Virus record (IMG/VR): IMGVR_UViG_3300044733_002230
Coordinates: 1-29,052 of that record
DNA length: 29,052 bases
Source of the DNA: a virus
Strand: one strand, 5' to 3'
The notes under the pieces are model-generated. The model was not told the DNA's origin. It ran no database searches and was given only the letters and a program-made list of their open reading frames with translations. The translations under genes were made by a program, and so were the position numbers. This document shows, piece by piece, positions 11,736-14,896 of the stretch (the stretch's first letter is position 1; every line of letters starts with the position of its first letter).

Positions 11736-12461
11736 ATGCCTTTACCAGAAATTACTGTACCCCAGTTTGAGCTTGTTCTTCCTTCAAATAAAAAGAAGAT
11801 TAAGTTTAGACCATTTATTGTAAGAGAAGAAAAACTTTTAATCATTGCTTTAGAATCTAGAGATCCTCAACAAGTTACAAATACAATTAAACAAGTTTTA
11901 TCTAATTGTATTTTGACAAAAGGAATTAAGATTGATGAGTTGCCTTCTTTTGATATTGAATATTTGTTCTTAAATATTCGTGCTAAGGCAATTGGTGAAG
12001 CGATTGAACTCAATATTACCTGTATAGATGATCCTGAAATCAAAATTCCAGTAACCTTATTTGTGGATGAAATTCAGGTTCAATATCCTGAGGGACATAC
12101 TGATAAAATTAATATGGAAAATGGATATTATTGGAAGATGAAATATCCATCTTTAAATCAATTTATTGAAAACAACTTTGACGTTTCAGAAAAATCTTCT
12201 GAGAATGTTGAGAGATCTGTAAAACTCATTGCATCATGTATTGAAAGTGTTTATAACGATGAAGATTGTTGGATGGCATCTGATTGTACTGATACTGAAT
12301 TAATTTCTTATGTTGAAAAATTAACTCCAAAACAATACAAAAAAATTGAGGAGTTTTTTAAAACAATGCCTAAATTATCTCATACAATTACAGTTGTTAA
12401 TCCAAATACAAATAAAGAAACTAGTGTCGTTTTGGAGGGCTTATCCGATTTTTTCGGCTAG
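11736..12461 (+). CDS. 26: Baseplate hub assembly protein gp26
   Basis: A 241-residue homologue of T4 gp26 (208 residues), a baseplate hub assembly factor. The family features are LPSNKKKIKFRPFIVREEKLLIIALES (residues 15-41), then LPSFDIEYLFLNIRAKAIGE, an early beta core followed by helices. It lies upstream of the gp51-like frame and gp27, matching T4 order 26-51-27. The last sense codons are GAT TTT TTC GGC before TAG 12459-12461, forming a U_UUU_UUC slippery heptamer with a hairpin directly after. A fraction of ribosomes may therefore extend it by 60 residues (see the separate entry). Confidence 0.87.
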   Translation: MPLPEITVPQFELVLPSNKKKIKFRPFIVREEKLLIIALESRDPQQVTNTIKQVLSNCILTKGIKIDELPSFDIEYLFLNIRAKAIGEAIELNITCIDDPEIKIPVTLFVDEIQVQYPEGHTDKINMENGYYWKMKYPSLNQFIENNFDVSEKSSENVERSVKLIASCIESVYNDEDCWMASDCTDTELISYVEKLTPKQYKKIEEFFKTMPKLSHTITVVNPNTNKETSVVLEGLSDFFG

Positions 12462-12469
12462 CCCTAGCC
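12449..12469 (+). promoter_or_regulatory. Predicted -1 ribosomal frameshift signal in gene 26
   Basis: The heptamer T_TTT_TTC (12449-12455) is in the gp26 zero frame, in exact X_XXY_YYZ register. It is two codons before the TAG stop. The stop lies in a perfect inverted repeat, GGCTA (12456-12460), loop GCCC, TAGCC (12465-12469). The hairpin starts without the usual 5-9 base spacer, so its stimulatory effect is uncertain. Confidence 0.65.
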
Positions 12470-12637
12470 AAAGAAGATCTTGAAACTTATTACAGGATCA
12501 ACTTTGCGCTAATGCATGTACACAAATATTCATTAACTGAAATTGAAAACATGATGCCATGGGAGAGAGAGATATATCTTGAACTTCTAAAACAGTACAT
12601 AGAAGAAAAGGAAGCAGAGAAACAAAAAAATGGATGA
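12455..12637 (+). CDS. 51: gp51-like C-terminal extension reached by -1 frameshift
   Basis: Frame -1 to gp26 is open from 12425 to TGA 12635-12637. After slippage it adds 60 residues (RLALAKEDLETYYRINFALM..., with HKYSLTEIENMMPWERE and LLKQYIEEKE), giving a fusion of about 300 residues. The amphipathic helical segment with MMPWERE resembles short gp51-type hub assembly proteins of cyanophages. In T4 gene 51 follows gene 26 as a separate gene. Here there is no good separate start: the first in-frame ATG (12512) has no proper ribosome binding site, and the peptide before it already looks coding. Alternatively a 41-residue protein may start at 12512. Known parallel: lambda G/GT and P2 E/E' tail chaperones are made by frameshift. 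Confidence 0.68.
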   Translation, partial: RLALAKEDLETYYRINFALMHVHKYSLTEIENMMPWEREIYLELLKQYIEEKEAEKQKNG

Positions 12638-13937
12638 AGAATCGCCAAAACCATTAAACATCAGTAAATTTTTTGGTAGAGGAGAGGAGTCTCTTGTGGA
12701 AGCTGCTGCTCCACAACCTGCAGTTAAGACCCCCATATTATCTGGAGGATTTGATTTATCTAATCTATTGAATATTATCAATACTCAAATAGATTTGAAA
12801 TCTGAAAGTGATGATTTAAAAGAAGATGTTGAAAATATAAGATTGCAAAGTTTGGTTGATAGTTTAACAGGTAGAGTAAACAAATTAACATCAGAATTGT
12901 CTGGATTGTTTTCATTAATTATCGGAGACATAAAGGAAAGAGATTCACAAAAAAGAGCAGAATTAAAATTAGCAATACAGCAACAGTCTGAAATTTCAAA
13001 GGCAGTTGCATTGCAAGCTTTGCAACAAGGTGCTGGACAAATAGCAGAAACTTCAGAAGCATCTAAAGAAGAAGTTGTAGGAACAATGGAATCCAATCGA
13101 CAAATGGATTTATTAACTGCTTCTTTAGGGTTGGGTGCAGGATTTTTAACAGAAAGACTTAATAACCAAGATAATCAAGATAAATTTGATTATCCTGGTG
13201 GAACTCTTTCTATGAAAGACTTAGTTAATCTTGCTGAGCAAGTAGGGTTCAAAGGAGACAACATACCTCTTGCTGCAGCAATTGCTATGGGGGAATCTCG
13301 TGGAGACCCTGCAATTGATACTGTGAAATCTGGTACAGATCCAGATATGAAAAATGAATATTCAATTGGACTGTGGCAAATCAACTGGTTAGCACATAAA
13401 GGTGGAGCTGCTCTTACACAATTAGGCGTAACCAATCCAGATCAATTGCGTGATCCTATGACAAATGCTAAAGCAGCCTTAGCAATTTCTGGAGGATCTA
13501 ATTTTTCACCATGGACTGTATACACTGGAGGAACTTATAAGGCATATCTGGATAGTGCTAAAAAGGAATATGAAGGATCGACAAATAATAATGAACAAGC
13601 ATCAGCAACTCCAGCAGCTCAAACTCAACCAATAGCAAGTGCAAGTCTTAATAAACCTGCAGCAACTGGAGATCCATCTTCTGTAGCAAAAATATCAACT
13701 CCAGGAGCTATGGTTTCTGCTGCACAAGTTGAATTGAATACAAAAACATTGATGCAAGATACTGCTGAATCACAGAACATGATTGCAATTTTACCTCCAG
13801 CAGCACAACAACAAAGTGCTCCAGCATCTTCAGTATCGGATACATCTGCAGATGCAACGAACCCAATTTTCTCTGCAGTAAATAGGAACGATCCATATCC
13901 AGCATCGATAGCTTTACAAACTAATGTTGTTGTTTAA
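12630..13937 (+). CDS. Baseplate-associated lysozyme-like (SLT) protein
   Basis: A 435-residue protein. The N-terminal 190 residues hold a predicted coiled coil (about 50-135). A lysozyme/transglycosylase-like domain spans about 195-310: PLAAAIAMGESRGDP with likely catalytic E222, then NEYSIGLWQINW (243-253), the SxGLxQIN motif of SLT enzymes, and a final SPWTVYTGGTYKAYL. The C-terminal 120 residues are Ala/Gln/Pro/Ser-rich linker. It probably cuts glycan strands of cell-wall peptidoglycan during infection. It starts inside the end of the gp51-like frame and lies beside an M15 peptidase and gp27, so it is probably a virion enzyme rather than a holin-linked endolysin. T4 puts this activity in gp5. 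Confidence 0.82.
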   Translation: MDEESPKPLNISKFFGRGEESLVEAAAPQPAVKTPILSGGFDLSNLLNIINTQIDLKSESDDLKEDVENIRLQSLVDSLTGRVNKLTSELSGLFSLIIGDIKERDSQKRAELKLAIQQQSEISKAVALQALQQGAGQIAETSEASKEEVVGTMESNRQMDLLTASLGLGAGFLTERLNNQDNQDKFDYPGGTLSMKDLVNLAEQVGFKGDNIPLAAAIAMGESRGDPAIDTVKSGTDPDMKNEYSIGLWQINWLAHKGGAALTQLGVTNPDQLRDPMTNAKAALAISGGSNFSPWTVYTGGTYKAYLDSAKKEYEGSTNNNEQASATPAAQTQPIASASLNKPAATGDPSSVAKISTPGAMVSAAQVELNTKTLMQDTAESQNMIAILPPAAQQQSAPASSVSDTSADATNPIFSAVNRNDPYPASIALQTNVVV

Positions 13938-13942
13938 GTATC

Positions 13943-14896
13943 ATGGCTAAAATAACAGCAGCTGATGTTGAAAAGGACATACAAAATGTTAATATTAGAT
14001 TGCAAGGATTAGATTATCTTATTAATAAAAATGAGAATGAATATCTAACAAAAAAAAGTTTACTTAAAACTAATGAAGGCATTTTAAAAACAATCAAAAA
14101 AAGTATTCAAAGAGAAGAAGATGAATACAATAATCAAATACAAGATAACGAAGAAACTGCAGTACAGAAAGTAAATAGAAAACGTATAGAAGAAAATAGA
14201 AAAGAACAGCAACGAAATGTTGATTCAAAAGTAGATAGACTTATTCTACAATCAATGATGGGAGTTGGTGCTGGTGGTTTATTGGCATCTCAAATTCAAG
14301 AAACAGTAACAGGTTCTAAACCAGATGGAACAAATGGAAGATTAAAAGCAGATCAATTAAAAGATGTTGGTGATGGTTTTAAATTATGGACACCAGCTGC
14401 AGATGCATATCTTGAAATGAAAGCAGCAGCTGCAAAAGATAAAGTGTATTTTAAATTGAGTAGTGCTTATAGAACTGTAGAAGAACAGCAGGCTCTTGTG
14501 GATGAATTGGGAACATGGAGTCCAACAAATCCAGGTGCAGCACCACCAGGAACATCAGCACATGGTTGGGGCATTGCAATTGACATTAGTTCTCCAGGAG
14601 CACAGCAATGGATTAACAGATATGGTGCAAAGTATGGGTGGGTTCCAACAGTTTCAAATGAACCATGGCACTTTGAATGGAGAGGTGGACAACCTAAAGC
14701 GGAACCAGTATCAAATACAAACGTACAAAAAATAAGTCAAACTCCAACAAAAACAAGTGCAGGTCTTATATCATTCAATACTCCTCAAGCACCAGAACCA
14801 TCGTATCCATTACTTCAACCAGAAATTGCTTCTGCTGCGAGTAAGCCAATAAATAAACCTAGACCCAATCCGTTCTTTATTGTACCTACTGGTTAA
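13943..14896 (+). CDS. VanY-like D-Ala-D-Ala peptidase (M15), virion-associated
   Basis: A 317-residue protein with a charged coiled coil at about residues 10-100, a short hydrophobic Gly/Leu stretch (101-117), then an M15B peptidase domain (about 135-250). Zinc ligands are H207 and D214 in SAHGWGIAID and H243 in EPWHFEW, with E240 as likely base. SSAYRT (173-178) is also typical. It probably cleaves peptide side-chains or D-Ala-D-Ala of peptidoglycan. The C-terminal 65 residues are a Pro/Thr/Ser linker ending NPFFIVPTG. It is paired with the upstream glycan-cutting enzyme and its stop overlaps the gp27 start by one base. The N-terminal layout (coiled coil plus enzyme) resembles its neighbour. 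Confidence 0.85.
   Translation: MAKITAADVEKDIQNVNIRLQGLDYLINKNENEYLTKKSLLKTNEGILKTIKKSIQREEDEYNNQIQDNEETAVQKVNRKRIEENRKEQQRNVDSKVDRLILQSMMGVGAGGLLASQIQETVTGSKPDGTNGRLKADQLKDVGDGFKLWTPAADAYLEMKAAAAKDKVYFKLSSAYRTVEEQQALVDELGTWSPTNPGAAPPGTSAHGWGIAIDISSPGAQQWINRYGAKYGWVPTVSNEPWHFEWRGGQPKAEPVSNTNVQKISQTPTKTSAGLISFNTPQAPEPSYPLLQPEIASAASKPINKPRPNPFFIVPTG

Follow-up and report, generated by a model that had tools for sequence, protein, structure and literature searches.

The 3' end of a gp26-like gene in a T4-like cyanophage raises the question of whether this gene encodes one protein or two. The gene lies in the window, the whole stretch of 29,052 nucleotides analysed here (IMG/VR record IMGVR_UViG_3300044733_002230), and its last codons read GAT TTT TTC GGC TAG. 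A preliminary description of the window had proposed that a slippery heptamer stands in exact X_XXY_YYZ register near the gp26 stop, and that the -1 frame behind it (hereafter ORF2) is open and encodes a coherent domain. Both proposals were confirmed (Table 1). Our reading, to which we assign a probability of about 0.92, is that the gene makes a short and a frameshifted long form of a tail assembly chaperone through slippage on T_TTT_TTC.

Table 1. Positions of the gene, the shift site and the candidate stimulators in the window
Feature	Positions	Strand	Remarks
gp26-like gene, short form (TAC-N)	11736..12461	+	241 aa; Pfam T4_baseplate, PF12322
Shine-Dalgarno-like GGAGGG, candidate stimulator	12434..12439	+	ends 9 nt upstream of the heptamer
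Slippery heptamer T_TTT_TTC, -1 shift site	12449..12455	+	exact X_XXY_YYZ register
-1-frame extension (ORF2; TAC-C, 'gp51-like' domain)	12452..12637	+	phrog_634, T4 gp51 C-terminus
Five-base-pair hairpin GGCTA-GCCC-TAGCC	12456..12469	+	TAGCC shared with the larger stem
0-frame stop TAG of gp26	12459..12461	+	one codon (GGC) between heptamer and TAG
Downstream stem-loop, candidate stimulator	12465..12511	+	9+7 bp, one internal loop, one bulged base

ORF2 remains open up to a TGA at 12635-12637, with post-shift reading beginning at CGG (12455), and its 3' end overlaps the start of the next gene at 12630. The predicted fusion comprises 240 + 60 = 300 aa and has the junction SDFF-RLAL; its predicted tryptic peptide across the junction is ETSVVLEGLSDFFR, whereas the short form ends in ETSVVLEGLSDFFG. 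Among the 24 larger ORFs of the window, only this one has a TTTTTT-type heptamer near its stop.

Profile searches placed the two frames in one protein family. The gp26-like protein matches PF12322 (E 8e-66) and covers positions 5-232 of phrog_150, 'baseplate hub' (E 8e-69). The ORF2 product matches phrog_634, 'baseplate hub assembly catalyst' (E 5e-27), and also positions 232-278 of phrog_150, directly C-terminal to the stretch matched by gp26. This contiguous match of phrog_150 by gp26 and then ORF2 indicates that the database family already includes fused proteins. The window pair falls in the T4 gp26/gp51 family, with PF12322 in gp26 and ORF2 homologous to the C-terminus of T4 gp51. The resemblance to gp51 suggested in the preliminary description held, but for the last ~50 residues of that protein and not for all of it.

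We then compared the junction among relatives. A tblastn search over 50,697 phage records gave gp26 matches in 876 and ORF2 matches in 765, and in the best cyanophage matches the gp26 and ORF2 matches retain the same 7-nt overlap. The extension is conserved at the protein level. DNA was read at 106 distinct junctions from single-copy loci of IMG/VR contigs and annotated phages, including Kyanoviridae, Pelagibacter, Methylophilales, Sinorhizobium, Stenotrophomonas, Acidovorax, Pseudomonas, Vibrio, Aeromonas 65 and Cronobacter LPCS28 phages; loci of the Ackermannviridae type and split-gene loci are not part of this set. T_TTT_TTC or T_TTT_TTT stands at the same place in all 106, with ORF2 in the -1 frame (T_TTT_TTC in 98 and T_TTT_TTT in 6 of the 104 loci counted by base), although these loci are phylogenetically related and the counts are not independent events. 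The distance from heptamer to stop ranges from 0 to 8 codons and is nearly always 1, while gp26 identity across the compared loci reaches down to about 22%. The codon before the heptamer always ends in T, whatever residue it encodes (AGT, AAT, GAT, TCT, GCT, GGT or ACT). By comparison, these genes contain 51 further Phe-Phe pairs in the first 52 loci; none of them is written T_TTT_TTC, and TTC TTT is their commonest form.

The scan of many T4-like cyanophages proposed at the outset was thus positive: the heptamer and the -1 frame are kept, and a start codon for ORF2 is not. Because the heptamer including its wobble bases, the -1 frame and the spacing are all kept, no start is conserved, and T4 gp51 provides a natural fusion, the comparison of sequences strongly supports programmed -1 frameshifting at the end of gp26.

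The same data bear on the view that ORF2 is a small, separate gene 51 whose translation begins behind the gp26 stop, either by reinitiation or at a dedicated start. GenBank records do carry a 'gp51' CDS at the ORF2 position, and in several relatives, for example P-SSM2 and S-CRM01 (TAATG), an ATG follows soon after the stop. However, no ORF2 start codon is conserved across the 106 loci compared, and only 21 of 104 have an ATG among the first 20 codons of the -1 frame. In the window, the first such ATG, at 12512, lies inside the domain behind a weak and badly spaced Shine-Dalgarno sequence (-4.1 kcal/mol, spacer 11), in agreement with the earlier claim that most of the domain has no usable start. 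Separate initiation would also leave unexplained both the strict conservation of the T_TTT_TT[CT] codons and the in-frame fusion in T4 gp51. It is not supported by these observations, and we regard it as improbable. Across the GenBank records of cyanophages and relatives (L058, L059, L060, L070-L073, L077 and L078), ORF2 is either entered as a 'gp51' gene of its own, with varying starts, or left unannotated; a joined CDS for gp26 and ORF2 would more likely be correct in those records.

Two further explanations were weighed. Slippage of RNA polymerase on the run of six Ts could also generate the long form, and a homopolymeric T run is present, extended to T8 in one relative (Melnitz, L071). Nevertheless, nearly all loci have T6 followed by C, a T6 run is short for RNA polymerase slippage, and the codon register together with the downstream RNA structure suits tandem tRNA slippage, making a polymerase origin very unlikely. 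The junction could also be a sequencing or assembly error, or a decayed in-frame fusion, and a frame break beside a homopolymer is a typical error pattern. This reading is refuted by the comparative data, since over 100 distinct sequences, from isolates as well as metagenomes, show the identical break, and its probability is negligible.

Further support for ribosomal frameshifting comes from the phages that lack the shift site. T4 gp26 and gp51 both contain PF12322 (E 5e-63 and 4e-52, respectively), which identifies them as paralogues. The T4 genes are separate and lie on opposite strands, 26 on the minus and 51 on the plus strand, and T4 gp51 joins a PF12322 domain and a C-terminal part (phrog_634) in one frame, the latter aligning with ORF2 across the shift junction. 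The shared PF12322 domain and the C-terminal domain of gp51 therefore indicate that T4 gp26 corresponds to the short form and T4 gp51 to the long form. T4 thus has homologues of the window's short form and fused long form, but as two paralogous genes without a slippery heptamer. Frameshifting is reportedly conserved in several T4-like groups, and the T4 group is said to use separate genes 26 and 51.

Copy number follows the same division. By whole-record count, a single PF12322 copy is present in every one of the 18 complete genomes in which the family is laid out in two frames; 15 of these have the canonical heptamer, and three belong to the Ackermannviridae type. The four T-even/RB49-type genomes T4, Phi1, PKO111 and Aes508 each have two copies. 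The slippery heptamer is absent from every split-gene gp26 examined. T4 gp26 retains the residues 'GLKEFF' with Phe-Phe encoded by TTC TTT, and this retention of 'EFF' serves as a natural control that separates amino-acid constraint from slippery-codon constraint. A well-initiated gene 51 alongside a gp26 without a slippery site, which the preliminary description had named as evidence against frameshifting, was encountered only in phages with a duplicated gp26 family.

The E. coli dnaX frameshift signal consists of an internal Shine-Dalgarno sequence, a slippery heptamer and a downstream stem-loop. The window locus resembles this three-part layout; it differs from dnaX in heptamer and gene, and its stimulators are predicted. 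Upstream, anti-Shine-Dalgarno pairing energy peaks at the GGAGGG spacing across 51 loci, and none of 100 synonymous redraws reached a mean energy as low as the observed one. Conserved Glu-Gly-Leu residues explain part of this signal, which is weak or unremarkable in many single lineages.

Downstream, the stem-loop is formed by an outer helix (12465-12473 with 12502-12511) and an inner helix (12476-12482 with 12493-12499), and begins after a spacer of 9 nt from the heptamer. The region 12456-12520 folds with -19.9 kcal/mol (z -3.4). For the same region of L001, a locus identical to that of the window, z is -5.4, and none of 93 other folding windows is as stable. Over 26 lineages, the 50-nt folding z has its lowest mean of all offsets tested at +4 (-2.0), compared with a background mean of -0.29, the offset means having a standard deviation of 0.28. 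When the -1-frame codons were redrawn synonymously, the mean z was -2.4 (-5.7 for L001). Stem sequences differ between lineages, the statistics are weak or absent in L018, L046, L048, L053 and L063, and within the largest clade covariation is largely one-sided and includes several combinations that do not pair. We therefore do not claim strong covariation proof for that clade; given the missing signal in some lineages and the one-sided changes, the stem-loop has statistical support rather than proof. Set against the dnaX layout, the heptamer is present, while the Shine-Dalgarno element and a stem at 5-9 nt have statistical support, though not in every lineage.

The preliminary description had pointed to a perfect five-base-pair hairpin directly after the heptamer. 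This hairpin exists in the window, but it is not conserved, being lost in most relatives and even in L003, whose gp26 is 95% identical. As it also touches the heptamer directly, we rejected it as a stimulator; the larger stem is the better-supported candidate.

We propose the following model. Most ribosomes would terminate at the TAG and release the short form, whereas a minority would slip by -1 on the heptamer, probably aided by the upstream GGAGGG and the downstream stem-loop, and produce the long form, whose C-terminal end is the gp51-like helical domain. Together, these products would constitute a tail assembly chaperone pair, TAC-N and TAC-NC; judged by the analogous lambda G/GT, their task would be to coat the tape measure protein and recruit tail tube subunits. 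T-even phages would make the same two proteins from separate paralogues, the short form from gene 26 and the long form from gene 51. Beyond this, we lean slightly towards a more specific hypothesis, in which three elements make up the T4-like shift signal, namely an internal Shine-Dalgarno element, T_TTT_TTC and a stem-loop 5-9 nt downstream. The stem-loop would keep its position while its sequence turns over between lineages, tuning the short:long ratio; T-even phages would have replaced this ratio control by gene duplication into 26 and 51.

The locus is consistent with a chaperone pair in that the short form and its -1-frame extension share the N-terminal domain, and the C-terminal part has no conserved start of its own. 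In the related phages phiM12 and D481, a long gene with weak tape-measure matches lies 3' of ORF2. No clear tape measure gene was found among the next genes of the window, which carry SLT and VanY domains: a transglycosylase-like gene with SLT (12630-13937) and a VanY-type carboxypeptidase gene (13943-14896) occupy the place of a single long gene in many relatives, and the two are possibly a split tape-measure/lysozyme gene. AlphaFold models were confident for the T4-type long form (gp51, pLDDT 85.6) and also for the window short form. Searches of the PDB returned no relatives of gp26/gp51, either by sequence or by fold, solved tail assembly chaperones included, and the top matches in a viral fold library were gp26/gp51-type or unnamed proteins. 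A published listing (PMC3004832) gives T4 gp26 and gp51 the role of hub assembly chaperones.

The slippery sequence of lambda gpG/gpGT differs from T_TTT_TTC, and no sequence homology of the window proteins to gpG/gpGT was found. Lambda nonetheless likewise makes a short form and a rare -1 frameshifted long form of its tail chaperone (PMC5009743), and the same 2016 review still lists T4 as an exception. Vandenendeviridae and Andersonviridae, which are different phage families, also shift by -1 at a poly-T motif near the end of TAC-N (PMC12846349); theirs is GTTTTT, and the window has the canonical T_TTT_TTC.

The preliminary description had taken frameshifting in gp26/gp51 to be undescribed, and our literature search combining gp26, gp51 and frameshift returned only unrelated phages. 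As cited by others, however, the tail assembly chaperones of T4-like phages, together with the poly-T sites at which they shift, were identified in 2022 (Vladimirov, Gautam and Davidson, Virology 566:9-15). The Adele paper (PMC12846349) cites that work for poly-T -1 frameshift signals in T4-like TAC-N genes, and the PRFect paper (PMC10885494) cites it for some T4-like phages in which a short gene and a long fused gene take the place of frameshifting. On the account of these citing papers, the window pair shares with the published T4-like TAC-N/TAC-NC the gene family and the kind of poly-T -1 shift, the short and long two-gene arrangement also recurs in some T4-like phages, and our central claim concerns one more example of a kind already published. 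Both the analysis of the stimulators and the association with copy number come from the present work, and the window locus may add better-defined candidate stimulators to the known T4-like shift.

Frameshifting at this site would tie the T4 hub chaperones gp26 and gp51 to the logic of the lambda tail chaperones, and it makes the short:long ratio in T4-like phages testable by a simple reporter. It would also explain the observation of Sullivan et al. (2010, PMC3037559) that cyanophage gp51 reaches just ~20% of its usual length, since this protein would be no more than the frameshift extension.

Other lineages depart from the canonical site. Ackermannviridae (L067, L068 and L172-L186) and Vibrio phage K393 (L066) have one PF12322 gene and a conserved -1-frame extension (..MPWHLDLL..). 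Their junction is N_NTT_TTC (GATTTTC, AATTTTC, GGTTTTC or ACTTTTC) and lacks the canonical heptamer, which suggests a non-canonical, perhaps P-site, -1 slip. In L088 (IMG/VR 2974754850, 167,034 bp), the frame of a T4-type gp51 is broken after 120 aa, and two partial 'baseplate proteins' of Klebsiella phage KPV15 in the viral fold library resemble two pieces of this gp51; either a sequencing error or damage to the gene could account for the break in L088. Finally, the fold search pointed to the Campylobacter phages CP220/CP21, in whose group gp26-like and gp51-like proteins are both annotated, hinting at a further split-gene lineage.
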